A stretch of DNA of 36,267 nt, taken from an uncultured beta proteobacterium. GTDB taxonomy: Bacteria > Pseudomonadota > Gammaproteobacteria > Burkholderiales > Burkholderiaceae_C. Positions 16,000-35,344 of this stretch are shown one piece after another. A program made the position numbers and the translations under genes. Under the pieces are notes generated by a model. That model saw only the letters and a list, made by a program, of their open reading frames with translations, did no database searches and was not told the DNA's origin. The DNA lies in the NCBI GenBank assembly GCA_903832285.1, contig CAILAY010000079.1, positions 1 to 36,267 of the forward strand, given 5' to 3'. Numbering within the stretch: position 1 is the first letter of the stretch; each line of letters opens with the position of its first letter.

Positions 16000-16010
16000 G
16001 CTGATTCGTC

Positions 16011-16829
16011 CTAGGCCAGCCAGGCCGGTGCAAATATGGCGTCACGCTGCGCCATGAAACCACGTCCGTTTGCCGGCACAAGCAGTCCAAAACCCAGCCC
16101 CTGCAACGCGTCGCGAGCCTGCGCATCCGCGCTCGGCGCAAACACCTGAACCTGTTCAGTGGCCGGATCCAAATCCGCCAACATGGCCTCCCCAACCAAC
16201 ATCTGGGGCAGTTGCCGGACCCAGTCCTCATCCGCCCTGACATGGCGCAGCCAACGCCAGTCGCCATCCTGTTTGACCGCCACGCAGATCCGGCCCGGCT
16301 CGTGCATGACAAGCCATTGGCAGCCATGGCGCGACACCCGGTGTCGCCACAACCCTTCCGCACCGGCCAGGTAGGTTTGCACGCTGGCCAGCTTGGCGCC
16401 GGCGCCGCTGACCGCTGTGCCCAGCGCTGCCAGCAGTTCTGATGGCAGCGCCGCAGCCACCCGCGAGACCCCTGGGCGCTCATCGCTCAGGCACACTGTC
16501 CAGTCCTTCGCCAGCACGCCAAAGGCCGACGCAAACTCCAGTTGCGCCAGTGCCAGATATTCCTCATCACCCCGCAATTCATCACGCCACGGCAGCACGC
16601 GGTACTGGACGAAATGATGCGACACGAGCACGCGCACCGAGCCGCAGCCGAACTCCTTCAAGGCGCCGCCGACGGCCGACAGCGCTGCTTGCCACGGGTC
16701 CCCGCCAGCGTCGGACACGGCATAACTTTGCGTGCGGCCGAGTTGTTGGCGCCAGCCGACGCGGCTCAGCGCGAGCACGGCTGTCGGGCTGAAAAACAGT
16801 TGCAGGGATTCAGGCGACAAAAGTGACAC
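16011..16829 (-). CDS. PilM-like (actin-fold) cytoplasmic platform protein
   Basis: Protein of 272 residues without signal or membrane segment. I call it PilM/cytoplasmic-GspL-like mainly from position: it lies between the ATPase gene and the PilN-like gene, exactly where pilM belongs. Its overall pattern also fits, with an N-terminal strand-rich part, VRVLVSHHFVQYRVLPW and later VQTYLAGAEGLWR. Sequence motifs are weak, and an ATP-binding signature is not obvious. Start is GTG, overlapping the ATPase gene by 20 bases with GGAAA a few bases ahead. It may couple the ATPase to the membrane platform. Confidence 0.6.
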   Translation of the reverse strand: MSLLSPESLQLFFSPTAVLALSRVGWRQQLGRTQSYAVSDAGGDPWQAALSAVGGALKEFGCGSVRVLVSHHFVQYRVLPWRDELRGDEEYLALAQLEFASAFGVLAKDWTVCLSDERPGVSRVAAALPSELLAALGTAVSGAGAKLASVQTYLAGAEGLWRHRVSRHGCQWLVMHEPGRICVAVKQDGDWRWLRHVRADEDWVRQLPQMLVGEAMLADLDPATEQVQVFAPSADAQARDALQGLGFGLLVPANGRGFMAQRDAIFAPAWLA

Positions 16830-18492: not shown

Positions 18493-19685
18493 TGCAAGCT
18501 TCCCGCGAGTTCAAAAATGGGGAAATACATCAGCACCACGATGCCACCGATGGCCACGCCTATCACCAGCATCAGCAAGGGTTCGAACAGGCGGATGAAC
18601 CAGTCAACCCAGCGCGCAATTTCGTCGTCATAGAAATGCGCGATGCGCTCCATCATCTCGCCCATCTGGCCGGTGCGCTCGCCCACCCTGAGCATGCGCG
18701 AGGACACCGGCGTCGTCAGGCCACAGCCCTCCATCGCCTGTGAAATCGGCGTGCCCTCGCTGACCTTGCGCGAAGCCTGCGTCAGTTGCTCGCGCAAATG
18801 CCCTTGCAGCAGACCGGCAGTCATACCCAACGAGGGCATGATGGGAATGCCGCCGCGCAGCAACATTCCGAGGGTGCGATAAAAGCGCGCCAACTGGTAC
18901 ACGCGCACCCGCTCTCCGAGCGCAGGTATCTGCATCAGGCGCGTCACCAGCGCGGCACGCGTCGAAGGCCGCGTCAACCAGAACGCCAGCAGTGCCACGG
19001 TGCCACCCACGCCCAGCAACAGGCTGGCCGTGTGGTCGGCCACCAGACCGCCCCAATCCATGAGCATGCGTGAAAGGAACGGTAAATCACGGCCGATGTC
19101 CTCGAAGATCCGGGCAAATCGTGGCACCACGTAACCCAGCAGGAAGATGATCACCAACGTACCGACGATGAGTAGCAGCGCCGGATAAATGGATGCACTG
19201 ACAAGCTTCTTGCGCACCACGTCCAACTGCGTTTGATAAACCACGTAGCGCCCAAGAGACTCGGGCAGATTGCCGGTGCGCTCGCTGGCGCGCACGGTCG
19301 CCACGTACAGCGGCACAAACACGGCCGGAAAACGCTCCAGCGCCTGCGACAGTGATTCGCCTTGGTACAGACCCTCTACCAATTGCGACAACAATTGCTG
19401 CCGCTCGGGTTTGCTCTCTTTTTCCCGCAGGGTCTCGATCGACTCGACCACGGACAGGCCGGCTTCCAGTAGCGTCAACAGTTCCTGACTGAACTGGCCC
19501 ACGGGAAAGGATTGCTGCATGGAACTACCGGAGCGACGCCAGCCGACCTTCCCCTGGGCTCGAACCTTGAGCACGGCAAGGCCCTGCTGCTGGGCCAGTG
19601 CGGTGGCGGCCTGCGCGCTTGCAGCGTCGAACACCGTAGAGACGACACCAGCGCTTCGGTCAAAGGCACGAACTTCAAAACGCAT
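18489..19685 (-). CDS. GspF-like inner-membrane platform protein
   Basis: Polytopic inner-membrane protein of 398 residues, standard length for GspF/PilC. It has two cytoplasmic four-helix T2SSF domains. The first includes FSQELLTLLEAGLSVVESIE and the second includes FYRTLGMLLRGGIPIMPSL. Membrane segments lie near 165-190 (PALLLIVGTLVIIFLLGYVV), 220-240, and at the C-terminus (LLMLVIGVAIGGIVVLMYF). It anchors the ATPase and the pseudopilin-recruiting complex. It begins 15 bases after the gspG-like gene. Confidence 0.94.
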   Translation of the reverse strand: MRFEVRAFDRSAGVVSTVFDAASAQAATALAQQQGLAVLKVRAQGKVGWRRSGSSMQQSFPVGQFSQELLTLLEAGLSVVESIETLREKESKPERQQLLSQLVEGLYQGESLSQALERFPAVFVPLYVATVRASERTGNLPESLGRYVVYQTQLDVVRKKLVSASIYPALLLIVGTLVIIFLLGYVVPRFARIFEDIGRDLPFLSRMLMDWGGLVADHTASLLLGVGGTVALLAFWLTRPSTRAALVTRLMQIPALGERVRVYQLARFYRTLGMLLRGGIPIMPSLGMTAGLLQGHLREQLTQASRKVSEGTPISQAMEGCGLTTPVSSRMLRVGERTGQMGEMMERIAHFYDDEIARWVDWFIRLFEPLLMLVIGVAIGGIVVLMYFPIFELAGSLQ

Positions 19686-19700
19686 TGTCCGTAGGTCCCG

Positions 19701-20129
19701 TTATTCCCAATTGCCAAGGTCGGCATCTTCGCCCGTGCCTCCGGGCACACCATCTCGGCCGTAGGAGATCAAATCGTATTCCCCGTGGTCACCCGGCTGC
19801 TTGTAGACATAGGCTGTGCCCCACGGATCGAGTGGCACCGCCTTCTTCAGGTAGGGCCCGTCCCAACGCGTCTCGTTGGCCGGTTTATCCACCAGGGCAG
19901 CCATTCCCTGCTGCGTGCTGGGGTAGTGACCGGTATCCAGTCGGAACTGGTCCAACGCCTGACCGAAAGCATGAAATTGATCGCGTACCACCGTCACCTG
20001 CGACTTGCCCACCTGCTTGAAATACTTCGGGCCGACGTAGCCCACCAGCATGCCGATGATGACGATCACCACCAACAATTCCAGCAGCGTGAAACCGCGC
20101 GCTGTACCGCGTTTACCGAGTCTCGTCAT
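19701..20129 (-). CDS. Major pseudopilin GspG-like
   Basis: Protein of 142 residues, the closest of the four pseudopilins to canonical GspG. After the leader MTRLGKRGTARG it has FTLLELLVVIVIIGMLVG with Glu5. The globular domain contains DTGHYPSTQQGMAALVDKP and the C-terminal calcium-loop region, with DPWGTAYVY, ISYGRDGVPGG and ADLGNWE. The start at 20129 is supported by GAGG about eight bases upstream; the longer frame to 20216 lies in the kinase gene. The first 17 bases overlap the end of the upstream histidine-kinase gene. Confidence 0.93.
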   Translation of the reverse strand: MTRLGKRGTARGFTLLELLVVIVIIGMLVGYVGPKYFKQVGKSQVTVVRDQFHAFGQALDQFRLDTGHYPSTQQGMAALVDKPANETRWDGPYLKKAVPLDPWGTAYVYKQPGDHGEYDLISYGRDGVPGGTGEDADLGNWE

Positions 20130-21015
20130 ACTTTTTACCTCGATCCAATTTTCGCTTTTCACGGCTCGCGTCGGGCGCCAGCAAAGACCAGGTTGCGACG
20201 ATGCGGGTGCCGCCATTGCTGGAACTGTCGATGTGGAATTCGCCGCCGGAAAAATCCACCCGGTCGCGCATTCCGGTCAGGCCCATACCAGCCTGGAGAA
20301 CACCTGAGCGCACTTGTTCCGGCGAAAATCCTCGGCCATTGTCCTGGATGTCCAGCACCAGATTCGATCCGTTCCCCGTCAGTCGCACAACGACCTGCGT
20401 GGCCTGTGCGTGCTTGACCATGTTGTTCATGGCTTCCTGCAGCACCCGGTAGATCGGCGTGCGCAACGCGACAGGTACGTCGGCCTCCGCCACCTCCACC
20501 TGGGCATTCATTGCGATGCCGGGATACACGGCGCCGAATTCGCGCATGAACCAGCTCAGGGTTCCGACAATGCCCAGATCGTCCAGTATGGCGGGCCGCA
20601 GATCCATCGCAATGCGCCGAACCTCATCCAGCGTGCTCTTGACCTGTTGCGCCACTCTTTGCAGGATGGCAGACGTGCCCGCAACATCACCCTTGCCCGT
20701 CAACACCAGGGCACCGCCCACCCCGAACGCCAGCGAGTTCAGTGCCGAACCCACGCTGTCATGCAGTTCCGAGGCGATGCGCTTGCGTTCCATCTCCTGT
20801 GCGGTCATGAGTGCCGCCGAAGCCTGGCGCAACTTCATTTCGGTTTCCCGCGCCTGCGAATGCACGGCATCAAGTGCGGAACGTTGCAGGTGCAACTGAC
20901 GCTGCAAACCCCGCACCATGCCATAAAGTTCGCCCGAGTCCTGATTCGACGCGGGAGCGGGGCTGCCCTGCCCCGCGGCGGAAGAACCCTGGTTCGAGAT
21001 ACTGTCTGTGGACAT
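20113..21015 (-). CDS. Soluble NarL-type sensor histidine kinase
   Basis: Cytoplasmic kinase of 300 residues with no membrane segment. A Ser/Gly/Gln-rich N-terminus (1-30) and a coiled coil (about 35-75) lead into the HisKA_3 dimerisation domain. The phospho-accepting His85 lies in MERKRIASELHDSVGS. The ATP-binding domain is complete: N-box EAMNNMVKHA (Asn198), D-box DIQDNGRGF (Asp225), and G-box GMGLTGMRDRV. No input domain is recognisable, so the signal may come from a partner, possibly the degenerate membrane kinase at the operon's far end. Its gene opens the secretion operon. It likely phosphorylates the response regulator at 10229-10888. Confidence 0.92.
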   Translation of the reverse strand: MSTDSISNQGSSAAGQGSPAPASNQDSGELYGMVRGLQRQLHLQRSALDAVHSQARETEMKLRQASAALMTAQEMERKRIASELHDSVGSALNSLAFGVGGALVLTGKGDVAGTSAILQRVAQQVKSTLDEVRRIAMDLRPAILDDLGIVGTLSWFMREFGAVYPGIAMNAQVEVAEADVPVALRTPIYRVLQEAMNNMVKHAQATQVVVRLTGNGSNLVLDIQDNGRGFSPEQVRSGVLQAGMGLTGMRDRVDFSGGEFHIDSSSNGGTRIVATWSLLAPDASREKRKLDRGKKYDETR

Positions 21016-21102: not shown

Positions 21103-21744
21103 TTACCGGGCCGCCACCAGCGCGCGATATTGCTTTACCGTCTCCTGGGCGGATGCTAACCCATCGAGCCGGACCCAGGGCTTGCCCGGAGCTGCACGCA
21201 GGTAGGTGACAGGAACATGGTTCATCTTGTCACCCCGATAGGCGTCAAACGCCTTCTGCAAACTCACACTGTCGCGCAACGTACCGGTATAAAACTGCCA
21301 CTGTGGACCGGCGCCCAGTTTCTTCGCATAACTCTGCAGCCGCGGCGCCGTATCGTATTCTGGATCAATGGTTATCGACAGCATGTGTACTTTGCTTGAA
21401 TCCTTTCCCAGCGCGTCCTGAACCTGGGCAAAGGTATGGGTCGTCACGGGACAGATCGCCGTGCACGAGGTGTAGATGAACTGCAGCATCACGGCACGCC
21501 CGTCGTCCAGCTCCGCCGGGAACCGGACCGACTTTCCGTCCTGTCGCATCAACGAGAGCGCCGGGACTTGGTAATTGACTTCGCTGCGTCTGATTTCAGC
21601 GGCCTGCATGGCAGCGTGGTCGTGATGATGCTGGTGATCCACGGGCATATCTTCGGCCCGGGCTCCCGCCATCGCAAACAGCGCAGAAATGCACAACACC
21701 GCGGGCACAAGCCCACCACGAAAAACGCCAGCCTTGCCAACCAT
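21103..21744 (-). CDS. SCO1/SenC-type copper chaperone
   Basis: Exported protein of 213 residues with a signal peptide ending near GARA. A His-rich segment (DHQHHHDHAAM, about residues 36-46) follows and could bind copper. The thioredoxin-like SCO domain has the copper-binding CxxxC motif in YTSCTAICP and the third ligand His in DKMNHVPVTYL. SCO proteins deliver copper to oxidases. In this locus the probable client is the multicopper oxidase at 29481-33635 rather than cytochrome oxidase, because no cytochrome oxidase gene is visible. GGAG six bases before the ATG supports the start. Confidence 0.92.
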   Translation of the reverse strand: MVGKAGVFRGGLVPAVLCISALFAMAGARAEDMPVDHQHHHDHAAMQAAEIRRSEVNYQVPALSLMRQDGKSVRFPAELDDGRAVMLQFIYTSCTAICPVTTHTFAQVQDALGKDSSKVHMLSITIDPEYDTAPRLQSYAKKLGAGPQWQFYTGTLRDSVSLQKAFDAYRGDKMNHVPVTYLRAAPGKPWVRLDGLASAQETVKQYRALVAAR

Positions 21745-22472: not shown

Positions 22473-24323
22473 TCAGGGCACGATCAGGTCGGTATCCGGC
22501 ACCAGTTGATTGCCGTTTTGCGTCGCAAACCGGACGATGTAGCCCGACTTGGAGGCGAAGCGCTGGCCCGGACCCATACTCAGATGCGGGTACATGGTGG
22601 TGCCCGAACTCTTGGCGGCGCCGCCCTGAGGGGTGGTGATCTGGACTCTGGCTGATTCCTCGATCGTCGGGACACCGTGTCTGCGGGTCAAATCCCCTTC
22701 CCTGCCCAGGGCCGCGCGATCTCTCGCTTCCTGTTCGGTCTTGATGCCTTCGCGTATGCTCAACATGCTTTCAGCGCGGTCCACCAGATAATCCCGATAC
22801 AGGTTATCCAGCATTTCGGAAAGCGTATCGGTCATGAAATTGAGTGCAAAAAAGACTTCTGATTGCATCGCTTCATCGACCAATGGCGTCTTGCTGAGAT
22901 TCAGCCAGGCATAGAAATAGTCCAGATTTTTCTTGCGCTTTTCCGGCAATTCATAGGGGTACACCAAACTGGAGCGCGCTCTCCAGCCGGCCGGCACCGG
23001 CGCACGGTCACCCATGGCAAGGACCGCTGAAAAGAAATTCTTCTCTGCCACTGGCTTGATGGTCTCCAGGGCGGCGACATCATCCGGCCGCAACCAGTAC
23101 ATGACGACATCGTCCTTGTCAACGCCGCCCAACGCCTGGCGCAATGCAGCCACTGCCGGCACGTTTGCACCCAGCACCTTGTCCGTCACGCGGATTCCCG
23201 ATCCGGCAAGCGCCCGGAACAGCGCTTGCCCTGCGGCGCGACCTGTGTCGCCATCCCGATAGATCTGCACCACCTTGGGATGCGCCCCTTTGCGATCCTT
23301 CAGATGGCGTGCCAGTACATCGGCTTCCAACGTGACTCCACCCGAGAAATAGAACGCGTAATCGGACTGGTCCTTGCCTGGAACTTCGACGCTGGGGAAC
23401 CAGCATGGAACGTGCTCATGGTTGCAAAAATCGTGCACCGGTTGCCAGGTGGAGTGCGACAGCCCGGAGAGCAACGCAAACACAGGCCGCTTGCGATAAC
23501 GCGCTTCAAGCTGCTCGCCCCAACTTGCGGGTGCGCCTTGCAGTTCCCAGATTTCCAGTTCCCATTTGCGCTCGGTTCCCAGGATCAGTTCAGCCGCCGT
23601 CGTCATGTGATGGCGGGTGTGCTGCTTCTGCGCCAACAGCGTACTGCCGTTTTTCTGGCGGAGTATGGCCCGCATCATGTCGATCATCACTTTGCGTCGC
23701 GCCGGATCGACATCAGGCGTAATCACTGTGGCGAAGCGGATCGTGTCGGCACTGGCGCCGGGCGACCATTGTGCGGACAGCTGCTTCAGATAGACCACCA
23801 GTGCGTTGAACTCGGCATCGCTCAAAATGAAGTGCGGCATGGTCACATTCATTGCGCGGTCGTGGTTGTTGACCCCGTTGCGAATCGCATTGCCCAGGGT
23901 GGCGTCGTCATACGGATCGTGCGCCTGATTGAAGCGTTTGCTGACATGCGGATCCATGGTGGCCAGGCGCATGTCGCCCTTCGCGGCAAACAGGAAATTG
24001 CCCGTGATCGGCGGTATCTGGATGTTCGCCTCAACCTGGCCCATGCCGCTGCGACGATGGCAGTTCACACACGCAGCCGACTCGCCCGTTACCGGATCTC
24101 TTCCCGCTCGGGTTCCCGTGAGCGCGGCTCCCGAAGGCAACACGCCTTCGTTGTAGATGCGCCGCCCCAACTCCAATTGCTCGGTACTGCCGGTGGCCGG
24201 CGCCTGTGCCAGTGCCGCGATGGACAACACCATGCCGAAGACAAATGACAGCCCGGGACGCAGCACGCGTGGCCGAATCGTGTCGCGAGTCGCCCGGCTC
24301 GAAGGGCTATTTGAAATCTGCAT
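22473..24323 (-). CDS. Cytochrome c fused to periplasmic-binding-protein-like domain (MofC-like candidate)
   Basis: Exported protein of 616 residues. After a signal peptide (about residues 24-42) comes a class I cytochrome c domain, with the haem motif CVNCH at 85-89 and likely axial Met162 in NVTMPHF. Residues about 195-520 resemble the type I periplasmic binding fold used by branched-chain amino-acid ABC receptors (IRFATVITPDVDPARRK, HPKVVQIYRDGDTGRAAGQAL). I see no ABC permease genes nearby. The start at 24323 is preferred over 24353 because GAGG sits about seven bases upstream. Leptothrix mofC, as I recall, encodes a haem c protein beside the oxidase, so this may be the equivalent. It may accept electrons from the oxidase or sense a ligand. 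Confidence 0.82.
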   Translation of the reverse strand: MQISNSPSSRATRDTIRPRVLRPGLSFVFGMVLSIAALAQAPATGSTEQLELGRRIYNEGVLPSGAALTGTRAGRDPVTGESAACVNCHRRSGMGQVEANIQIPPITGNFLFAAKGDMRLATMDPHVSKRFNQAHDPYDDATLGNAIRNGVNNHDRAMNVTMPHFILSDAEFNALVVYLKQLSAQWSPGASADTIRFATVITPDVDPARRKVMIDMMRAILRQKNGSTLLAQKQHTRHHMTTAAELILGTERKWELEIWELQGAPASWGEQLEARYRKRPVFALLSGLSHSTWQPVHDFCNHEHVPCWFPSVEVPGKDQSDYAFYFSGGVTLEADVLARHLKDRKGAHPKVVQIYRDGDTGRAAGQALFRALAGSGIRVTDKVLGANVPAVAALRQALGGVDKDDVVMYWLRPDDVAALETIKPVAEKNFFSAVLAMGDRAPVPAGWRARSSLVYPYELPEKRKKNLDYFYAWLNLSKTPLVDEAMQSEVFFALNFMTDTLSEMLDNLYRDYLVDRAESMLSIREGIKTEQEARDRAALGREGDLTRRHGVPTIEESARVQITTPQGGAAKSSGTTMYPHLSMGPGQRFASKSGYIVRFATQNGNQLVPDTDLIVP

Positions 24324-24410
24324 TCGGCACCTCTTGAGTTGTCTACTGCGCATGATAACCAGAGCGGCAACGCCATAAGCCGATGCCCGTTACCAGATTG
24401 CTGCGCTGCC

Positions 24411-27400
24411 TTACCTCACGTTCACGTTGACCGCCACGCTGGTGCTGCTGCCGCTCGCGTTGGTCGCCGTCAGCGTCATCGAGTAGGTTCCTGCCGCTGC
24501 AAAGGTGATTTGCTGGCCCGATGTCGTTACCGTGGCTTTTCCGGTGTTAGGCGTCACGCCAGCCGGTGCAGTCCAGTTCACGGCATAGGTCAGTCCCGCT
24601 ACCGGCGTAAAGCTGAGGCCACCGGTGAACGCTCCCCCGTTTGTACCGTTGGACGCCGTGGCCGTTGGCACACCCGGCAGCGTCAGTTGTGCTGCGCTGG
24701 AGGTTGAGAAGCCGCCGTTGCCGGCAGCGCCCGTCGCCCTGACCTGGAACACATAGGTCGTGTTGCCGTTCAACCCCGTTACGGCCAGACTTGTCGGCAA
24801 CACGCCAGCTACCGCGTTCACCTGGGTCGCATTCCCGAAGGCACCAGCCACACCGTTTGTTACGGTCGCACGCTGAACCGTGTAACTCGTCGCACCCGTC
24901 ACCGAAACCCAGTTCACCGTAACACCTGAGGCGGTCACACCGGACACCGTGGGCTGTGCGGGCGTGGCCGGCAAGGTCCACTGAGTCAGGCTGGTTGAGG
25001 TGGCACAAGTGGCCCCGTTGTTGTTGCAGGCGGCCACGGTATAGACGTTGCTTGTACCCGGCGAAGCGCCCGTCACAGTCAGCGAGGTGCCCGTCAGCGA
25101 CGGTTGTGCGATACCGTTCGCGTTCACGACATAGCTGGTAGCCCCTGCCGGTGCGTTCCAGTTGAGCGTGAAGCCGGTTGTTGAAACACCACTCGATGCC
25201 AGGAAGGCCGGCGCAGCGGGTGTTGTCGCCAGGGTGGTCTGCGCCACGGAACCGGACACGCCACTGCTGCCGATGGCGTTCTTGGCGCTCATCTGGAAGC
25301 TGTAGGTTGTGCTTGCCGACAAACCCACGATCACTGCGGAAGTGGAAGCCGAGCCCAATGAGGCAACCGTTGTCCTCACACCGTTATTGCCCGTGCCCAC
25401 ATTGCTCCAGGGCGCGCCGCCGGTGGTCGAATACTGCAGCGTGTAGCCCGTGGCGCCCGTCACGCTGGTCCAGCCCAGGGTGATGGATGTCGACGTCACG
25501 GCGGACACAGTGGGAGTGGCTGGTGTAGCGGGCAGCGTCAAGTCCGCACTCACCGCACCTGATGCGGTAGACGTTGCGGTCTGACCGAACTTCACTTGCT
25601 GTGCGGCTAGCGTAAAGCTGTACACGCTTCCCAGCGTCAGGGTCACGGTCGTGGACTGCGTCGCGCCTTGGCCAGCAGTCGCAATGCTGGTCGGCGCTGC
25701 GCCATTGATGCTCAGCAGATATGCGGTCGCGCCCGTCACCTTGTTCCAGGTCAGCGTGACGCTGCCGTTGCCATTCACCACCGCGCCTGCACCCACCCAT
25801 GTGGGCATGGCGGGCGCCGTGATTTCGGTGTAGGGAGTCGACGTCGTCGAGCCGGCGTTGTTCCAGGCCACGACTTCGTAGGCGTAGTCGATGCCAGCCT
25901 GCTGCGTCGCGTCGGTGTACTGGGTCACGTTGGCCGGTGTCGCACCGATCTGCTGATAACCGCCCAGGTTGCCATTCACCGAGTACGTCGCTCGCAGCAC
26001 CTTGAAGCCGATTTCATTCTTCGGATTGGCCAGGGTTGCCAACACCGCCGACGCCACACCGGCATTCACTGCAACCGCGGGGGTCGGATCGGTCCAGGTC
26101 AGCACGCCGCCGCTGCCGCCCAATTGGGTCGGCGCATCCGGCTTGGTGACAGTGGGATGAAACACCACCGGGCGCGTGAAGTCATCTTCCGCATGTCCCA
26201 GGATGGCCGAACCCCAAGTGAACTCGTTGTCGTAATTGGCCACCACGTTGGTGGTGGTCGTCAGCAGCGGCGCACCTACGGCATTCGCTGGCGCACCGGC
26301 CGGAATGGGCGCTGTCACCGCCGGATCAACCGTGAAGCCCAGGCCCGAACCGGCTGCGCCAACCTTCCGGGACGGATCCTGCAGGCGCGAGCTTGCGGGC
26401 AAGCCGAACGGCACCGTGGGACGCTTGGCGCGCATCGCCACCACAGCGTCTTCCAGGGGGTTGAGCCGGATCGTGTCTTTCCAGCCCACCTCGTTGGTTG
26501 CAGGCGCCTTCACGGTGCCATCCCAACCCACGCGGTTGATCAGTTGCACGTCCACCATGTCGAAGCGGATCGAGTTCGACCAGAAGCCGTTGTCCACGAG
26601 CTTCCAGATCTGCACTTCGCCGTCCTTGATTATTTCGGTGGGCGAATCGATGTAGTTCAATGGGATCGTGGTCTGGATAACACCGCTGGTCATGGGCAGT
26701 TCCACGCCGCCGGTGGAGTTGTAGCGACCGTAGTCATCGAACAATTCCTGCTCGGCCTTGGTCAGCACCGGAATCGATTTGAAGTTGCTCGTCTTCACAA
26801 CCGCCTGCGCCCCGACGCCGCTGGTGCCGCTCGGATTGGTGAACGTGACCAGTGGCGCGCAGACATAGCCTGAACCCAGCGTGACATTGGTAAAACCGGT
26901 GACCTGTTGCGTGCTCGGAACGGCCGGAGTCTTCACCTTGCCATTGGGAAACAGCACAGCTGGCGTTCCCTGATCTACCACCGCAATGGCGGCTGCAGAC
27001 ACGCCCGCAACACCGTTCACGGTCGGCAGGCAATTGACACCGTTCACCGTGCTATTGAAAACCACCGTCGGCGGATTCTTCGGGTCGTAGCCCGTACCGG
27101 AACCCGGGGTGGCATTGCCCACGACGGCGCCGCCTGCCACCACCGTGCCACCTGAAGTGATCAGGTCCAGCCCGGTGATCGAGAGCGCGCCGCTGGTGGA
27201 GAAGTCCAGGTTGGGCTGTGCGATGGAGCCCGTTGCAACGTGGGCATAGACATCCGCGTCGTTCGTGCCGAATGCGGCGTTGTAAGCCACAGCCGGAACG
27301 ATGGGCGCGGATTGCGATGCGCCGTAGGCAAGGGGCAAGGCGGCGGCCAAAGCCACTGCATCAAAGGGAGTCGCGGCTGCAACCGACGGTGTCGACGAGG

Positions 27401-29456
27401 GACCCTTCACCACGATCTGCATCATCGTGCGCGTGTTCGGTCCGTAGCCGGGCTGGGTGCTGTAGGCGCCGCCCTGCCCCGTCAGATCGGGGTTGCCGGT
27501 GTAGTAGTCGTTGCGCGGATCGTTGAACGGTGTGGGCGCGGGTGCGTCGTTGTACAGGATCAGCGTCTGGCCGGCATAGGCCGAGAAGTCGACCACGGCG
27601 TCGGCACGTTCGGCCGGGCCCAGCAGCATGCCGTAACCGTAGATGTTCAGCACCGTGATGGAGCGACGATTCTGCTCATAGGTCACGGGCTGCGAGGGGA
27701 TGTCCACCGGATTGGGCAACAGTCCGCCATCGTTGCCGATGACGATGAAATCAGGGCCGGAGGTGGCCGGGTCGGGTGCGCCGCCGGCGCGGCCGTCCGT
27801 GGGCCAGGCGCGGCTGGGACCGGAAGGTTCGGAATTGATGTTCCACGGCAGATTGGGGTACTGCGGCGACGGTAACTGGACGCCATTCACGGCATCCCAG
27901 CCCGGCGGATTGCCGGCCACGTCGGCGGCCGCTGGGATCATCTTGACTTCGGTGTTGGTGAAGAAAAGTTGATTGCCGCTTGCGTCGAAAGTGGGGTTGC
28001 CATTCTGGTCGAGCTGCGGCGCCTTGACCGTCGCATCGGCCTTGTACAAACCCAGGTTGATGTAGCGGTCGTTGCTGGCATTCAGGATGCGCAGGCGATA
28101 GGCTTTCGGGTCCACTGTGAGCGTGGGATACGCCGTGCCGTTGATGACCGGGGTGTCCAGATAGGCTTCGGGTGTGAAGCTCGGCGTGGGCAGCGTGGCC
28201 TTGGCGACAGTCACGGGAAATATCGGCCAGAACAAAGGACCGTAGTCCCAGCGGCCCACCGGGTTCACGCCATTCACCGAACTCGGGTCCTGATTGGTTT
28301 CGTACACGTGCGGGAACCACAGGTCGCCGGGTTGGCCCCAGGTCCATTTGGCATCCTGCTGCGCGATGTTGGCGGGCACAAAAGTCTTGTCCTCGATGAT
28401 CAGGGGGATCTGCTCCGCAGGGATCGTTCCCGCAGTGACGAGCGCCTGCTCCGCAGCATCCGTGACGAAATAGCCGGCTTCCAGACCCGCGTAGGAATTC
28501 AGCCGTGTCAGGCCCGAAGTGCGGTCTTGATAGAACATGAAACGCGCACTCAGATCGTTCGGGAAATAGAGCGTGGTCGAGCCTGCACCGGGGTCGGCCA
28601 TGTCGGGCACATTCTGGGCACTCACGCCTTTGGTGTAAGGCGTTGCCTCAGCTGCCGGAGCCACCCATTGATGGGGCGAGCCCGCGCTGATCCACGGCGA
28701 CTGTCCGCCCACCAGATGGATTTCGGCACGGTTTTGCGTGTAGCTGTTGACGCCATCCGGCCCCAGGCCTGCGCCCGTGATGGTCGTATCCACGGGAATG
28801 AAAAGCTTGCCACCCGCGCCGGTGGGCAGGTAGTTGGTGAACTTCACGCGCACCGCCGTACCCTTGGTGGAGTTGATGATGGGGCCGAGGTGATGCGGTG
28901 CATCCACCACGCTCAACACCGTGCCGTCCAGCGTGGTGAAGGAGGTGGCGGCCACGCCCTTCGCAGCCAGGCCCGGTGTCATGAGTTGCACATAGCCGCG
29001 CAGATGCGTGGCCTTGGGCAGATCGCTGTGCATCTTCTCTGCATATTCGACCGCCGCGATTTCGTAGTAGTCGTCGCCTGTCGTCACGCCATTGCCGTCA
29101 ACCCATTTTTCCGCAACCGCGACCGGGATGTATTGGCCCAGATTGTTGGCCTTGGCCGCACCCATTCCGGGCAGCGTGTCGACGAACTTGCGCAGTGCCT
29201 TGCCGGTCGCAGCGACGTAGGGCAGACCGGTTGCCGGGTCGATTCTTGCGCCGTTCGCGTCGAGTTGGGGCGCCGGCCCTGCAGGGCTGTTGGCGTAGTA
29301 GGTCGGAACCACCACCGGGGTGTTGCTGGTGTTCACGCCCGAGCCAAAACCGGAGCCCGCGTGGGCCACGTTCAAGGCGAACTGCGAACCCACGGCCATT
29401 GCGATGGCCGCGGCAAGGGGGCTGAACTGAAAGGAATTGCGTTGGACGTTCTTCAC
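24411..29456 (-). CDS. MofA-like multicopper oxidase paralogue lacking copper ligands, with FnIII repeats
   Basis: Exported giant of 1681 residues; signal peptide ends near NVAHA. Residues about 30-1110 follow the paralogue at 29481-33635 closely, but the copper motifs are broken. HWHG is HLVG (His247 kept), HDH is QDR (310-312), HPVHFH is NSIRFD (961-966), and HCHILGH is GSAILGH (1082-1088, only His1088 kept). Nine of eleven ligand positions are lost by substitution, while the frame stays open. An extra region (about 745-880) has two GSGY/GTGY-type units. The C-terminal 570 residues hold about five fibronectin-III-like domains and a final PKD/Ig-like domain. Start GTG with CGGAG nine bases upstream, 24 bases after the active oxidase gene. 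Oxidase activity is very unlikely; a scaffold, mineral-binding or partner role is inferred. Confidence 0.88.
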   Translation of the reverse strand: MKNVQRNSFQFSPLAAAIAMAVGSQFALNVAHAGSGFGSGVNTSNTPVVVPTYYANSPAGPAPQLDANGARIDPATGLPYVAATGKALRKFVDTLPGMGAAKANNLGQYIPVAVAEKWVDGNGVTTGDDYYEIAAVEYAEKMHSDLPKATHLRGYVQLMTPGLAAKGVAATSFTTLDGTVLSVVDAPHHLGPIINSTKGTAVRVKFTNYLPTGAGGKLFIPVDTTITGAGLGPDGVNSYTQNRAEIHLVGGQSPWISAGSPHQWVAPAAEATPYTKGVSAQNVPDMADPGAGSTTLYFPNDLSARFMFYQDRTSGLTRLNSYAGLEAGYFVTDAAEQALVTAGTIPAEQIPLIIEDKTFVPANIAQQDAKWTWGQPGDLWFPHVYETNQDPSSVNGVNPVGRWDYGPLFWPIFPVTVAKATLPTPSFTPEAYLDTPVINGTAYPTLTVDPKAYRLRILNASNDRYINLGLYKADATVKAPQLDQNGNPTFDASGNQLFFTNTEVKMIPAAADVAGNPPGWDAVNGVQLPSPQYPNLPWNINSEPSGPSRAWPTDGRAGGAPDPATSGPDFIVIGNDGGLLPNPVDIPSQPVTYEQNRRSITVLNIYGYGMLLGPAERADAVVDFSAYAGQTLILYNDAPAPTPFNDPRNDYYTGNPDLTGQGGAYSTQPGYGPNTRTMMQIVVKGPSSTPSVAAATPFDAVALAAALPLAYGASQSAPIVPAVAYNAAFGTNDADVYAHVATGSIAQPNLDFSTSGALSITGLDLITSGGTVVAGGAVVGNATPGSGTGYDPKNPPTVVFNSTVNGVNCLPTVNGVAGVSAAAIAVVDQGTPAVLFPNGKVKTPAVPSTQQVTGFTNVTLGSGYVCAPLVTFTNPSGTSGVGAQAVVKTSNFKSIPVLTKAEQELFDDYGRYNSTGGVELPMTSGVIQTTIPLNYIDSPTEIIKDGEVQIWKLVDNGFWSNSIRFDMVDVQLINRVGWDGTVKAPATNEVGWKDTIRLNPLEDAVVAMRAKRPTVPFGLPASSRLQDPSRKVGAAGSGLGFTVDPAVTAPIPAGAPANAVGAPLLTTTTNVVANYDNEFTWGSAILGHAEDDFTRPVVFHPTVTKPDAPTQLGGSGGVLTWTDPTPAVAVNAGVASAVLATLANPKNEIGFKVLRATYSVNGNLGGYQQIGATPANVTQYTDATQQAGIDYAYEVVAWNNAGSTTSTPYTEITAPAMPTWVGAGAVVNGNGSVTLTWNKVTGATAYLLSINGAAPTSIATAGQGATQSTTVTLTLGSVYSFTLAAQQVKFGQTATSTASGAVSADLTLPATPATPTVSAVTSTSITLGWTSVTGATGYTLQYSTTGGAPWSNVGTGNNGVRTTVASLGSASTSAVIVGLSASTTYSFQMSAKNAIGSSGVSGSVAQTTLATTPAAPAFLASSGVSTTGFTLNWNAPAGATSYVVNANGIAQPSLTGTSLTVTGASPGTSNVYTVAACNNNGATCATSTSLTQWTLPATPAQPTVSGVTASGVTVNWVSVTGATSYTVQRATVTNGVAGAFGNATQVNAVAGVLPTSLAVTGLNGNTTYVFQVRATGAAGNGGFSTSSAAQLTLPGVPTATASNGTNGGAFTGGLSFTPVAGLTYAVNWTAPAGVTPNTGKATVTTSGQQITFAAAGTYSMTLTATNASGSSTSVAVNVNVR

Positions 29457-29480
29457 GATGTCTGACTCCGGTTGGGATTC

Positions 29481-32400
29481 TTATTGGACGCTGGCTGTCA
29501 TGTTGACAGGTGCCGAACTTCCCGCGTTGCTGTTCGCAACAAGCTGGATGTTATAGCTGCCCGTCGGCAGACCGACCACAGTGGCCCCGGTCGCGCCGGG
29601 TGCCAGCGTCAGCGTGATCGCCGAGCCACTAGGCGGCGCCAGGACGAGCGTGAAGCCGCTCACATTTTTCACGTTGCGCACGTCGTTGCCCCAGCTCACC
29701 GTGAGGGCACCCACGTTACCCGTTGCAACCGGGTTCACCGGAGCATAGACACTGCCGGTGTACACGCTGGTTGCCGCAACGGCGGTGGCGCCGCTGAGCG
29801 TCTGTGCCGACACCGTGAAGGCGTTGTTTCCGCCTGCGGTCAAGCTTGCGCTGGGCACGGTGCAACTTGTCGCGGTGGCACTGGCACAGGTGAAGCTCCC
29901 GCCATTCACGCTCACGCTGTAGCTCGTCGCTCCAGGAACGGCAACCCAGCTCAGAGTCACCGACCCGTCTGCATTCAACAACTGCGACAGTCCGGTCGGG
30001 CCCGCTGCGGTGGATGTGAGCGCGGGTGCCGGCACATTGGATACCGGCGCAACCACACCACCCACACCAGCAAGTGCCCCGACCTGTGCACCGGCAACCG
30101 TGGTCGAAGTACCTGCGACAGAATTGCCGGCCGCGTTGTAGGCAACCACGGTATAGACGTAGGCTGCTTTGACGCTGGCATCGGTCCAGCTGGTCGTGTT
30201 CGCGGGCAGCGTGGCCACCAGGTTGGCGCCGCGGTACACCTTGAAGCCGATCTCGTTCTTCGGGCTGCTGGTGGGCGTGGGGTAAGCCGCGTTCGTTCCG
30301 GCAGTGGGAATGCCTTGCGCATCCTGACCGCCGTAGGGCGTGGTGTCAGTCCAGGACACTGTGGTACCCGAGACTTTCACCGCGGCCGGTGCGTCGGGCA
30401 CCACCACATTCGGATGGAAGATGAAGGGACGCATAAAGTCGTTTTCTTCGTGGCCCAGGATGTGGCAATGCCACACATATTCGTTGTCGAAATCCGTCAG
30501 CTTGTTCGAGTAGACCGTGGTCCTCACGTTCTTCGTGGCACCGTTCACAAGTTGCGTCTGGAACGTCGGCGCCTGACCGGTGGTCGGGTCGATCTGCGTG
30601 AAGCCCAGTTGCGAGTCCACGCTTTGCGATGGGTCCAGCACGCGCTGGCTCCTGGGCAGGCCGAACGGCGTCACCGGGTGCACCGCCTTCACGGCCACGT
30701 ACACGTCTTCCAGCGGATTCATGCGCAGCGTTTCCTTCCAGCCCACTTCGTTGGCCTCGGGCGGCTTGATGGTACCGTCCCAGCTCACGCGGTTGATCAC
30801 CTGCACGTTCACCAGGTGAAAGTGCACCGGGTGCGAGTCCACACCGTTGTGCGTGATCTTCCAGACCTGGGTGTCCAGGTCGCTGGCCCAGTCGTTGATG
30901 GCGTCCAGGTTTTCCACCGGCGTATCGATATAGGCCAACGGTATGGTCGTTGCCACCGTTGCGCTGGAGAACGGCAGTTCCACCGCCAGCGTGGCGTTCA
31001 TGCGACCGTAGATCGGATCAAACAATTCCTGAATGGCCTTGTTGATGACCTTGATGGTTTTGGTTTGCAGCACGCCGTTCACATCCTTGGCCTTGTAGGT
31101 GAACAGGCCATTGGTGGCGAGCGAACCCGTGCCGATGCTGGCGTAGTTGTTTTGCTCGCTCATGCCGAAGGGCGCGTTGTAGGCGACTTCCGGAATCAGC
31201 GGTGCCGGTTGCGATGCCGCATACGCCACAGGCAGGTTGTTCGCCAAGGCAGCCACGTCGAGGGCACCGCCCGCGCCGGAATTGTTGCTTGAGTTCACCA
31301 CGATCTGCATCACCGTGCGTGTGTTGGGGCCGTAGCCTGCCAGCGTGTCGTAGGCGCCGCCGGCCTGGGTCTGGTCGCCCACACCGGTGAAGTAGTCGAT
31401 GCGCGGATCGTAGCCGGGCATGGGAGCGGGTGCGTCGTTGTACAGGATCAGCGTTTGCCCTGCGTACTTGCTGAAGTCGATCAGCACGTCGGCACGCTCG
31501 CCACCACCCAGCAGCAGTTGATGATTCAGCACGTTGAACACAGTGATGCTGCGCACGTTTTGTTCGAACGTGACAGGCTGTGCTTTCCACACCCCGGGCG
31601 CGGGCAGCAAGCCGCCTTCGTTGCCGATCTGCACGATGTCGGGGCCGGCCGTTGCGGGGTCGGGCACACCACCAGCGCGACCGTCCGTAGGCCAGGTGGC
31701 CGGGAAGCCCGCAGTCGGCACAGCTGCCACCATCTTCACTTCGGTACAGGTGGCCAGTGCGCCGGTCTGACCGGGTGCCAGCACGTTCGGCGCAGGAGCA
31801 GGATTGGTGCTGGTATCGCACACCTTGCCGGCGCCATCAACGGCCTGGTACAGGCCCAGGTTTTGTGTGCGGTCGTTGCCGATGCTCAGGATGCGAAAGC
31901 GATAGGCCTTGGGGTCCACGGTGAGCGTGGGATAGGCCTGTCCGTTCACGGTGGGCGTATCCATGAAGGCTTCGGGCGTGGCGGTCACATGACCATATTC
32001 ACCCGTAGGCAGGGACATCTGCGCCGGGAACACCGGCCAGAACCAGGGCCCCCAGTCCCAGCGACCCACCGGGTTGGTGCCGTCGATCGAGTTCGGATCC
32101 TGATTGGTTTCATACACGTGCGGGAAGAACAGGTCGCCCGGCTGACCCCAGTGGTTCAGATCCCATTTGGCGTCCTGTGATTGCACCGGCAGTCCGGCTG
32201 CGTTGGTGGGGTTCGGACCGACGTTCTTGGGCACGAAAGTCTTGTCCTGAATCACCAGCGGAATGCCCACCGTGTCCAGCAACGGAACCGCTGCAGCGAG
32301 CGAGGAACCATCGGGCAACGCCAGATTGACGTTGAGCGCCTTGGCCACCATCGAGAGCTCGGTCATGTCGTACACGATGTAGCCGGCGGCCTCGCCCGTA

Positions 32401-33635
32401 TAGGCGTTGAGTTTGGTCAGGCCGGAGGTGTGGTCGTGGTACATCATCAAACGACCGCTCAGGTTGTTCGGGTAGTACAGCGTGTACGAACCGGGGCCTG
32501 GATCGGGCATGTCGGGCACGTTGGCGGCGGCGTCGCCCTTGCCCATGCCGTCGGGATGAGCGGCATCCGTCATGCTGTTGGCAACGTCCCCTGCCGGCGT
32601 AAACCATTGATGCGGCGTGCCGTCGCTGATCCAGGGCGAGTCGCCGCCGTGCCAATGGATGGCGACGCGATTCTCGGAGAAGCTGATGGGCTTGCCGGTC
32701 TTGGGATCCAGTACGGGGTTGCCGTTGCCGTCCGACACCGGACCGCCGCCAGCGATCAACTCGTCCACAGGCAGGGGCAATTCACCGCCCTTGCCGGTTG
32801 GAGAACCATGCGACACGCCCTGCGCGTCGGTGTAAGGCAAGTAGTTGGTGGCCTTGATGCGCACCGCCGTGCCGCGCGCGACAACGATGGACGGACCCAG
32901 GTAGTTGGGCGCATGCACAAAGTAAACCTGCTTGTTCGTCTGCACCCATTTGCCGGCCGCGTTCTGCTCCCATTTGTAGATCGGCGTGCCGTCCAGATAG
33001 GTGCCGGGAATGTGGTCGCTGCCCACGACGCCGGTGATGTCCTTCAGGCCCGCGGCAATGGCCGGTGTCTCGATCTGCACATAGCCGCGCAGGCGCGTCT
33101 TCTTGGGCAAATCGGGGTGCATCTGCAATTCGTATTCGACGATGGCCACTTCGTAGTAGTCGTCGTTGGTGTGGGCGCCGGTGATGGGGTTTACCCATTT
33201 TTCCGGCAGGCCCACCGGGATGCCGTCGCCTTCGAGGCCGTTGTACACGCCGGGCAGCGGCTTGACGAACTTGCGCAGCGCCGTGCCGGTGTCCACCAGC
33301 TTGCCTGCAGCAAGGGCTTCGGCCACGGTGTAGGCAGCGTTGGTGGCAGGGTTGATCGTCGCCAGCACACCCGCGATCGTCACTGGATTTCCTGCGGCAT
33401 CCAGCACCGGCAAATGATCCGCGCCAAGTGCCACCTGCACGCCTTGCGGGCTGTTGGCGTAAAAGGTGGGCACCGCAATCTGGCGCCCCGAAATATCCGT
33501 ATTGGGACCGAAGCCTGCATTGGCAAATGCCGCGTTGGGCGCCAGTTGCGCGGCCACGGCCAACAGCATCCCGGCGACCACCGGATGGAGCTTCGTGGAT
33601 CTGTCGTGGGTCGGGTTCATGTTGGTAACTTTCAT
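29481..33635 (-). CDS. mofA: Giant MofA-type multicopper oxidase
   Basis: Exported protein of 1384 residues, with a signal peptide ending near NAAFA. All four copper motifs are intact: HWHG (His327, His329), HDH (His400, His402), HPVHFH (His935, 938, 940) and HCHILGHEENDFM (His1056, Cys1057, His1058, His1062). The type 1 axial position is Phe1067, with Met one residue later. Residues about 1085-1384 form three fibronectin-III-like domains. Large MofA proteins of Leptothrix are linked to Mn(II) oxidation; Mn, Fe or another substrate cannot be decided from sequence. AGGAG nine bases before the ATG supports the start. Downstream genes encode an inactive-looking paralogue, a cytochrome c and a SCO protein. 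Expected location is the cell surface or outside, probably through the adjacent secretion system. Confidence 0.9.
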   Translation of the reverse strand: MKVTNMNPTHDRSTKLHPVVAGMLLAVAAQLAPNAAFANAGFGPNTDISGRQIAVPTFYANSPQGVQVALGADHLPVLDAAGNPVTIAGVLATINPATNAAYTVAEALAAGKLVDTGTALRKFVKPLPGVYNGLEGDGIPVGLPEKWVNPITGAHTNDDYYEVAIVEYELQMHPDLPKKTRLRGYVQIETPAIAAGLKDITGVVGSDHIPGTYLDGTPIYKWEQNAAGKWVQTNKQVYFVHAPNYLGPSIVVARGTAVRIKATNYLPYTDAQGVSHGSPTGKGGELPLPVDELIAGGGPVSDGNGNPVLDPKTGKPISFSENRVAIHWHGGDSPWISDGTPHQWFTPAGDVANSMTDAAHPDGMGKGDAAANVPDMPDPGPGSYTLYYPNNLSGRLMMYHDHTSGLTKLNAYTGEAAGYIVYDMTELSMVAKALNVNLALPDGSSLAAAVPLLDTVGIPLVIQDKTFVPKNVGPNPTNAAGLPVQSQDAKWDLNHWGQPGDLFFPHVYETNQDPNSIDGTNPVGRWDWGPWFWPVFPAQMSLPTGEYGHVTATPEAFMDTPTVNGQAYPTLTVDPKAYRFRILSIGNDRTQNLGLYQAVDGAGKVCDTSTNPAPAPNVLAPGQTGALATCTEVKMVAAVPTAGFPATWPTDGRAGGVPDPATAGPDIVQIGNEGGLLPAPGVWKAQPVTFEQNVRSITVFNVLNHQLLLGGGERADVLIDFSKYAGQTLILYNDAPAPMPGYDPRIDYFTGVGDQTQAGGAYDTLAGYGPNTRTVMQIVVNSSNNSGAGGALDVAALANNLPVAYAASQPAPLIPEVAYNAPFGMSEQNNYASIGTGSLATNGLFTYKAKDVNGVLQTKTIKVINKAIQELFDPIYGRMNATLAVELPFSSATVATTIPLAYIDTPVENLDAINDWASDLDTQVWKITHNGVDSHPVHFHLVNVQVINRVSWDGTIKPPEANEVGWKETLRMNPLEDVYVAVKAVHPVTPFGLPRSQRVLDPSQSVDSQLGFTQIDPTTGQAPTFQTQLVNGATKNVRTTVYSNKLTDFDNEYVWHCHILGHEENDFMRPFIFHPNVVVPDAPAAVKVSGTTVSWTDTTPYGGQDAQGIPTAGTNAAYPTPTSSPKNEIGFKVYRGANLVATLPANTTSWTDASVKAAYVYTVVAYNAAGNSVAGTSTTVAGAQVGALAGVGGVVAPVSNVPAPALTSTAAGPTGLSQLLNADGSVTLSWVAVPGATSYSVSVNGGSFTCASATATSCTVPSASLTAGGNNAFTVSAQTLSGATAVAATSVYTGSVYAPVNPVATGNVGALTVSWGNDVRNVKNVSGFTLVLAPPSGSAITLTLAPGATGATVVGLPTGSYNIQLVANSNAGSSAPVNMTASVQ

Positions 33636-33935: not shown

Positions 33936-34499
33936 CTACACAACGTCCACGACTTCGATCACGTAGATCAGCACCGCATTGGGCGCGATGCCGTGGGCGC
34001 CACGGGCACCGTACGCGAGTTGGGGCGGAATCACCACCTCCCACTTGGAGCCCGCCGGCATCAGTTTGACGGCCTCCTTCAGGCCCGGCACCAATCCGGC
34101 GACGCGAAGGGTTGTGGGGGTTTTGTCATCCGCCTTGTCGAACGTCGAACCATCGGCCAACTTGCCGGTATAGCGCACGCGCACCGAGCTGGCGTCCGTT
34201 GCCTTCTTGCCGGTACCGGCCTGCAGGATTTTGTACTGCACGCCGCTGCCCAAGGTGACGACGCCGGGCTTGGCCCGGTTGCCGGCGAGAAAATCGGCGC
34301 CGGCTTGCGAGTTGCCCTGAGCACGCTCCGCCTTGGCCAATTCAGCGCGCTCCCGGGGGCTCATCTTGCCACCGCGTTGCAACCGTTCCTTGTTGGCGGC
34401 GTTCACCTGCGCGTTGCTGTCAGTTGCCGAAGACTGCGCCACCGACTGAAATGCCAGCAGGCACAGGCCGAGCAGTGCGATTGATTTCACGGGATTCAT
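33936..34499 (-). CDS. Exported FKBP-type peptidyl-prolyl isomerase (MofB-like candidate)
   Basis: Protein of 187 residues with a signal peptide (MNPVKSIALLGLCLLAFQSV), a charged helical linker (KERLQRGGKMSPRERAELA) and a C-terminal FKBP domain. Pocket residues are visible in VRVRYTGKLADGSTFD and PQLAYGARG. The usual pocket-floor Trp is Leu (VPGLKEA), and the late Phe is Tyr (LIYVIEV), so activity may be reduced. The start at 34499 is supported by AGGA about eight bases upstream. An FKBP gene accompanies mofA in Leptothrix (mofB, from memory), which suggests a chaperone for the secreted oxidase. It follows the other FKBP gene by 40 bases. Confidence 0.88.
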   Translation of the reverse strand: MNPVKSIALLGLCLLAFQSVAQSSATDSNAQVNAANKERLQRGGKMSPRERAELAKAERAQGNSQAGADFLAGNRAKPGVVTLGSGVQYKILQAGTGKKATDASSVRVRYTGKLADGSTFDKADDKTPTTLRVAGLVPGLKEAVKLMPAGSKWEVVIPPQLAYGARGAHGIAPNAVLIYVIEVVDVV

Positions 34500-34539
34500 G
34501 ATCTGCTTCCTGAAGGCACGACGATGCGCTTGCGCACCA

Positions 34540-35229
34540 TCATTTGATTCCAAGCAACTCCAAATCAAACACCAGCACTTCATTCGGACCAATGTCGTTG
34601 CCCACGCCGCGCTCCCCGTAGCCGAGCACTGCCGGAATGACGATGTGCCACTTTGAGCCGACGGGCATCATGCTCAGTGCCTGCTTCCAGCCGGGTATGA
34701 GTGCCGATACCTTCAGGTTGGCGGGTTTGCCGGGTTCAGTCGCATCAAACTCCGTGCCGTTGATCAGCGCGCCGCGGTAGTTGACTTCCACCATGTCCGA
34801 CTCCATCGGCTTCTTGCCGGTGCCTTCCTTGATGATCTTGTACAGCACGCCGCTGGGTGAGGTCATGACACCCGGTTGCGTCTTGTACTCGGCCAGATAA
34901 GCATCGCCCTTCTTCTTGTTGTCGCCAATCGCCTGCTGGCGTTTGGCCGCCATCTTCTGGCGCAACTGCGTCTGGTAGTCGTTCATCACCTGGCGCATGT
35001 CCTTGTCCGAGACGCGCAACTTCTCACCGGCGAGGCTGCTTTTCAAACCTTCCAGCAACAGGCCCACGTCAACTTCGGTGCCTTCGCTCTTGAAGTTTGT
35101 GCCGATGCTCGCTCCAATGCTGTAGCTCAGCTTGTCCTTGTCCGACTTGAGGGCCGCTGCGTCAGCAGCAAAAACCTGACCGCCTGCAAACACAAGACCG
35201 CACAACAAGATTGCATTTCGCTTCCACAT
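34540..35229 (-). CDS. Exported FkpA-like peptidyl-prolyl isomerase
   Basis: Protein of 229 residues: signal peptide ending near QVFA, an N-terminal helical dimerisation domain (KLSYSIGASIGTNFKSEG, about 30-110) as in FkpA/Mip, then an FKBP domain with the complete pocket (VEVNYRGALINGTEFD, IPGW, LGYGERG, LVFDLELL). It should act as a periplasmic prolyl isomerase and chaperone. Three candidate starts (35238 TTG, 35235 ATG, 35229 ATG) lie together; the last is chosen because the strong GAGGAG is nine bases away. First gene of a two-gene FKBP unit downstream of the fibronectin-type gene's terminator. Confidence 0.92.
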   Translation of the reverse strand: MWKRNAILLCGLVFAGGQVFAADAAALKSDKDKLSYSIGASIGTNFKSEGTEVDVGLLLEGLKSSLAGEKLRVSDKDMRQVMNDYQTQLRQKMAAKRQQAIGDNKKKGDAYLAEYKTQPGVMTSPSGVLYKIIKEGTGKKPMESDMVEVNYRGALINGTEFDATEPGKPANLKVSALIPGWKQALSMMPVGSKWHIVIPAVLGYGERGVGNDIGPNEVLVFDLELLGIK

Positions 35230-35288
35230 ATCCATCAACTCCTCAGAAAATTACAGGTTACCCAAAAAAGATCCAGGTAGCTCAAACC

Positions 35289-35328
35289 AAAAAAATCGCC
35301 GACGTCAGATGTTATCTGACATCGGCGA
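35289..35328 (-). terminator. Rho-independent terminator after the FnIII protein gene
   Basis: A stem of 14 bp with one mismatch (35297-35310 with 35314-35327; extended by an outer T-A pair) and a GTT loop. In the minus-strand direction it is followed by seven Ts (35289-35295 are As on the plus strand). It lies just after the stop codon at 35345-35347. Confidence 0.9.
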
Positions 35329-35344
35329 CTTGTTGCTACGTCAC

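Follow-up and report, generated by a model that had tools for sequence, protein, structure and literature searches.

The 1681-residue protein encoded in the window (the whole stretch of 36,267 nucleotides that was analysed, from an uncultured beta proteobacterium) appears to be a conserved pseudoenzyme of the MofA family, predicted from its sequence and likely to act as a noncatalytic structural partner of the multicopper oxidase encoded 24 bases upstream; we give this reading a probability of about 0.55. It rests on the loss of copper ligands and of two acidic residues, on the grouping of such proteins in one clade, on the adjacent oxidases of a matching clade, on dN/dS values well below 1 and on a separate second class of ligand-less relatives. 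We refer to proteins of the type found here as class A.

The open reading frame of the window paralogue (Table 1) comprises 1681 codons from a GTG with zero internal stops, and BLASTP aligns its product with the intact copy in two blocks, with 411/873 identities (47%) in the first and 220/560 (39%) in the second. Two of the 11 copper ligands are left (H247 and H1088) and nine are lost, so that the full set of ten histidines and one cysteine expected of an active oxidase is not present. A preliminary description, made from the letters of the DNA, had proposed the nine losses, the intact frame and the 24-base gap to the oxidase: the motif replacements are exactly those that it gave, the frame and the gap (with GGAG before the GTG) are as described, and we add the strand, which is the minus strand. 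Above the Pfam cut-offs, the paralogue contains fibronectin type III domains (PF00041, in three stretches, the best at residues 1312-1402) and a marginal Pur_ac_phosph_N match (31 bits for a cut-off of 30). No Cu-oxidase family matches it at E <= 0.01 in Pfam; PF07731 is found in the intact copy. The protein nevertheless belongs to the MofA/OmpB family by descent, as seen from its homology to the intact copy, its fibronectin domains and its position nested among the MofA-type rows of the trees. The FKBP (mofB) and cytochrome (mofC) neighbours are also present at the locus.

Table 1. Features of the window around the ligand-less MofA paralogue (nucleotide positions are those of the window; residue numbers are those of the paralogue).
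Feature	Position	Strand	Basis
Type II-secretion-like genes: GspG, GspF-like, GspE-like, PilN-like, GspD-like, pilin-like	11855..20216	minus	
SCO1/SenC protein (copper chaperone family)	21103..21744	minus	Pfam
MofC-like protein: cytochrome c domain and weak periplasmic-binding-protein match	22473..24353	minus	Pfam
Ligand-less MofA paralogue (class A pseudo-MofA), 1681 aa, GTG start	24411..29456	minus	ORF, BLASTP, motif pattern
C-terminal region past the oxidase-like core, fibronectin type III domains	24414..26159	minus	Region start set by eye
Motif IV: GSAILGH replaces HCHILGH, last His retained	26193..26213, residues 1082-1088	minus	Motif alignment, CotA profile
Motif III: NSIRFD replaces HPVHFH	26559..26576, residues 961-966	minus	Motif alignment
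Enlarged linker between cupredoxin domains 2 and 3, 222 residues versus 91 in the intact copy	26760..27425	minus	
Motif II: QDR replaces HDH	28521..28529, residues 310-312	minus	Motif alignment, CotA profile
Motif I: HLVG replaces HWHG; H247 retained, second His is V249	28707..28718, residues 247-250	minus	Motif alignment, CotA profile
Intergenic gap, 24 bases, GGAG before the GTG start	29457..29480	minus	
Intact MofA-type multicopper oxidase, 1384 aa, all 11 ligands	29481..33635	minus	ORF, PF07731, motifs
FKBP-type peptidyl-prolyl isomerase (MofB-like)	33936..34592	minus	Pfam
Second FKBP-type peptidyl-prolyl isomerase	34540..35238	minus	Pfam
Terminator-like stem-loop, 18 pairs, after the second paralogue fragment	35293..35331	minus	Consensus scan
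C-terminal fragment of a probable second ligand-less paralogue, body most likely on contig C118	35345..36262	minus	

The ligand columns were checked with a profile of 27 relatives aligned to the solved structure of CotA (the chain is the H493A mutant), which covers motifs I, II and IV. In motifs I and II, H105, H107, H153 and H155 of CotA correspond to H, V, Q and R, respectively, and in motif IV H491, C492 and H497 correspond to G, S and H. The three motifs thus fall in the columns that had been assumed, which, for these motifs, speaks against copper ligands elsewhere in the paralogue, a placement that a structure-based alignment might have revealed. Two further residues of CotA, D116 and E498, are placed near the trinuclear site by the titles of PDB entries. 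Of the 111 active rows, 108 have Asp and 105 have Glu at the equivalent positions (the remainder being gaps); these residues become A and S in the profile of 27 relatives, and both are Ala in the window copy, which therefore also lacks the acids of an active oxidase. In the ligand-less twin, the ligands of CotA, an active laccase of Bacillus, and the equivalents of its two acids are largely replaced. Among 169 columns that are at least 95% conserved in the active proteins, the majority residue of class A is identical in 150, and the 19 changed columns include eight copper ligands and both acids, so that the loss is concentrated at the copper sites. The axial type 1 position (M502 in CotA, F1067 in the intact copy, window 30435-30437) is Phe in 72 of the 111 active rows, Met in 29, Leu in four and a gap in six.

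These conserved positions, together with a predicted three-domain cupredoxin fold that matches CotA, agree with the earlier proposal that the fold is probably retained without the metal sites, and we predict that the window paralogue keeps the oxidase fold. Among solved structures CotA is the best fold match and is also among the best sequence matches; the whole-length Foldseek superposition is loose (TM by target 0.67, r.m.s.d. 12.9) and the AlphaFold models are of moderate confidence.

Of 7992 scored candidates from a search of 5.8 billion proteins, 3050 were relatives. The best 120 of these 3050 divide into 28 intact proteins and 92 with the ligand-less pattern, which varies somewhat (HDR instead of QDR, for example); the paralogue is thus not unique to this genome, a possibility that had been held against the pseudoenzyme reading. 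Two of the 92 (P0005 and P0073) are this genome's own or near-identical. The named sources among the relatives listed include Rhodoferax, Gallionella and Nitrosomonadales metagenome-assembled genomes (MAGs). Scanning GTDB genomes for two peptide patterns turned up 78 loci, which with the window and contig C118 provide 14 class A copies, all from MAGs. The source organisms are betaproteobacteria, Gallionellaceae or Nitrosomonadales, with one locus (L018) assigned to a proteobacterium.

As the preliminary description had suggested looking for, the ligand-less form lies beside intact mofA genes: in 12 of the 14 copies its immediate neighbour on the same strand is a MofA-type oxidase gene, which comes before the ligand-less gene in ten of them and after it in two (L021 and L026). 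All 11 ligands are seen in eight of these 12 oxidases; three others (L017, L018 and L033) are cut by contig ends and show motifs III and IV only, and the one in L012, of which the C-terminal part is visible, was identified by reading its translation. As for the remaining two copies, L014 shows no oxidase in the approximately 5 kb visible on one side and is cut by the contig end on the other, and L029 is followed by FKBP, MofC and SCO1 genes, with no oxidase, and is cut on its upstream (5′) side; L029 and L033 come from the same MAG and may be one gene. Where the class A gene is second, the nearest start before its conserved N-terminus is a GTG in all nine cases measured, 24 to 149 bases past the oxidase. 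In addition, the longest contig of 25 of the 92 class A clusters is exactly as long as that of one of 105 partner relatives, and 23 of these matches, which partly overlap loci already counted (for example L015), are physically possible; 0.26 would be expected by chance, and there are none (0/92) with the 28 other intact proteins. The P0009/P0158 and P0043/P0171 coincidences were set aside, such contigs being too short for both genes.

Class A is patchy and rare. In the genus of the window it is matched in three of five genomes (two first-look candidates scored per genome), among 369 genomes of the class there is one true case, this genome, and in a Gallionellaceae set (the family of genome G204) it occurs in three of 100, all three already in the GTDB scan. 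A pattern match in G275 was rejected as a different peptide, and the family relative G077 shows only intact motifs.

When the motif columns are masked, the 38 class A rows group in a single branch of the tree and the 11 adjacent oxidases in a second, with an SH-aLRT support of 100 each (a quick LG+G4 tree in which three rows cover less than half of the columns), and a mixture model on 62 rows agrees with both clades. As class A is a conserved clade, the ligand-less pattern is not due to chance. G595, a genome of the same family set, has an intact gene without a pair, and this gene does not group with the partner clade; P0217 is a member of the partner clade on a contig of 1.86 Mb. The distance matrices of the paired proteins correlate (Mantel r = 0.51, p = 0.0009, 11 loci; r = 0.46, p = 0.02 for the eight full-length loci), a correlation that may reflect shared species history alone. 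A 641-residue archaeal row with a weak score (L051), automatically labelled ligand-poor, is a distant protein on a long branch and was counted in neither class.

The dN/dS ratio of the window copy versus L012 is 0.18 (NG86, core, 1054 codons, dS 0.77). Across class A it ranges from 0.08 to 0.26 (the 14 lowest-dS of 90 comparisons) and across the partner oxidases from 0.125 to 0.25 (the 14 lowest-dS of 55), values that are rough since NG86 is blind to codon bias. There is no visible difference between class A and its intact partners, and the window copy, with a ratio well below 1 like those of the intact copies, gives no sign of the relaxed selection considered at the outset. The open frame, the conserved clade and the low dN/dS thus favour the earlier claim of a pseudoenzyme under selection, but this does not extend to the new residues themselves: conservation at the replaced ligand columns is similar to that of random columns and of the rest of the protein (P = 0.37), so that an extra constraint on them is unsupported.

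A second ligand-less class is separate from the first and lacks a different set of ligands. In a Nitrosomonadales MAG (L041), an intact oxidase gene and an FKBP gene are followed by a 2360-codon relative (13306-20385) with the motifs HLHG, HDQ, HPVYFN and TNGMLGW. With four further database clusters that show small motif changes it makes up a class of five, in which the D116 and E498 equivalents are replaced too. For four of the five, an intact relative lies on the same contig (L041) or on an equally long one (P0234/P0241, P0236/P0240 and P0237/P0238). Forcing both ligand-less classes into one clade is rejected (lnL 120 lower, p-AU 1e-6). The loss of copper ligands beside an intact MofA, as read from these alignments, therefore appears to have occurred twice.

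This genome contains two pairs. The second oxidase and its ligand-less twin are on contig C118 (L011, 3-11006), and the truncated open reading frame at the window's end (36262-35345) is most likely the end of this second ligand-less gene, because database protein P0073 holds both pieces: the window fragment is identical to its residues 2077-2382, and P0073 matches the C118 frame at 2046/2049. The gene order would then most likely be oxidase-twin-FKBP-FKBP-oxidase-twin-MofC. The two pairs belong to different subclades for both genes. A terminator-like stem-loop lies close to the fragment, in a consensus scan whose count (11 sites versus 14.0 in shuffles) is by itself meaningless. The locus also includes a histidine kinase gene, and its NCBIfam GspF, GspE and GspD matches are under the curated cut-offs. 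Type II-secretion-like genes adjoin mof genes elsewhere too (L012, L015, L016, L017, L022, L037, L038 and L142). The linker between domains 2 and 3 (window 26760-27425) is filled with Gly-rich repeats of the form GxGYxxxPxVxF, which are much expanded in some ligand-less proteins (L011 3-6149). Linker lengths span 168-774 residues in class A, 94-260 in intact and 86-547 in partner proteins, overlapping ranges that were measurable only with anchor words (71 of 92, 20 of 28 and 96 of 105 clusters, respectively). An intact MofA-type open frame of more than 4500 codons is found in genome G617 (L144 3-13520).

How might such a pair work? Both proteins would carry signal peptides and leave the cell via the type II-like system of the same locus. 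The twin would retain its three-domain cupredoxin shell and, through this shell and the enlarged linker between domains 2 and 3, might bind active MofA or the surrounding matrix, while its fibronectin repeats would help to anchor the oxidase on the cell surface or within the matrix in which the metal oxide forms. The intact copy alone would reduce oxygen and oxidise the metal, assisted by the MofC-like cytochrome and SCO1. A further-reaching version, which we put forward tentatively and at less than even odds, is that metal-oxidising MofA in these lineages is an obligate two-subunit enzyme made of a catalytic subunit and a full-length copper-free twin, stripped of its coppers at least twice to become a dedicated scaffold that puts the oxidase in place and acts as an extracellular template for the metal oxide.

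The adjacency of the two genes could also be kept by the co-regulation of two independently acting proteins. The most serious competitor to a structural partner, although an unlikely one in our estimation, is that the twin alone is a secreted mineral- or metal-binding matrix protein, with the shell, the Gly-rich linker and the fibronectin repeats binding Mn/Fe oxide or the sheath and making no contact with MofA. Its variable, repeat-rich linker and length (1294-2759 residues among the 92 clusters) and its fibronectin domains would suit such a role, and the available passages of one study discuss Geobacter OmpB as possibly attaching to mineral through its fibronectin domain (PMC5566968). Intact copies often have fibronectin tails too, however, and independent action requires neither the oxidase gene found next to 12 of the 14 copies, wherever the contig shows it, nor the fact that the neighbouring oxidases form a clade of their own. 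It is rather improbable that the twin is a re-purposed metalloprotein, with one metal held at two type 2 histidines and the last type 1 histidine for substrate delivery or sensing. The first His of motif I and the middle His of motif III, which we take to be type 2 copper ligands, are kept in 98 and 83 of 108 class A rows (near-copies included), and the last His of motif IV, presumably a type 1 ligand, in 92; yet in the window copy Arg replaces the motif III histidine, and 15 rows combine Ser, Thr or Ala at the middle of motif III with Asn at the last position. Moreover, SufI, which retains two histidines of the trinuclear site, was reported to show no metal (PMC2661564).

We consider slightly less probable still a regulator or maturation factor, for example one that works as a decoy for MofA or as a chaperone for its copper loading or secretion. 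The FKBPs, SCO1 and secretion genes of the locus would fit this role, although a chaperone would not usually have so long a fibronectin tail; the present data do not distinguish this reading from the partner model. Finally, duplicate genes often decay and the class A loci come from MAGs, but a decaying duplicate or an assembly artefact is very improbable given an open frame with the same replacements in many species, dN/dS values of 0.08-0.26 in the 14 lowest-dS of 90 comparisons, a clade support of 100 and two pairs in this genome.

A copper-less member of the fold is already known: SufI/FtsP, for which a role as a scaffold has been proposed (PMC2661564). Class A pseudo-MofA may be of the same kind by analogy, in that it is predicted to be copper-less. 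The resemblance goes with clear differences: SufI of Escherichia coli is a single periplasmic cell-division protein, whereas the twin is a giant with fibronectin repeats beside an intact oxidase in a mof-type locus; it ranks nearer to CotA than to SufI, and it falls outside the FtsP equivalog (NCBIfam FtsP, 18 bits versus a cut-off of 581). Its core is homologous to two extracellular multicopper oxidases, Geobacter OmpB and Leptothrix MofA. In the tree, the homologue from Leptothrix cholodnii SP-6 (P0269), whose set of 11 ligands is complete, branches outside the two paired clades. MnxE and MnxF of Bacillus are small and unrelated to MnxG. Unlike these, the extra protein here is a full-length paralogue. 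The Mnx complex (MnxEFG), which produces Mn oxide, is described as a multicopper oxidase of multimeric form (PMC5622069). The FKBP, MofC and SCO1 genes of the window match the neighbours (FKBP or MofB, the cytochrome MofC, and SCO1) given for mof and ompB clusters in the accessible sections of PMC5566968.

Multiple mofA copies have been reported (excerpts of PMC11412304 and PMC13386937), as have a few BLAST matches in Gallionellaceae (excerpts of PMC10734462). In the main texts of the openly licensed literature, without supplements, we found no description of a ligand-less MofA, and the available portions of PMC11412304, PMC13386937, PMC5566968 and PMC10734462 mention no ligand-less mofA copy or twin. 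One genome study, in the portion available, gathered multicopper oxidases by their copper motifs (PMC11412304), a collection in which ligand-less genes would be missed.

In the portions of the literature at hand, the activity and the partners of MofA have stayed open (PMC5566968; PMC11412304), and the substrate of L. ochracea MofA is called unclear (PMC11412304). If the enzyme of these lineages includes a copper-free twin, expressing mofA by itself might fail to reveal the true activity. The repeated loss of the metal sites beside an intact copy would constitute a clean natural case of extracellular pseudoenzyme evolution.
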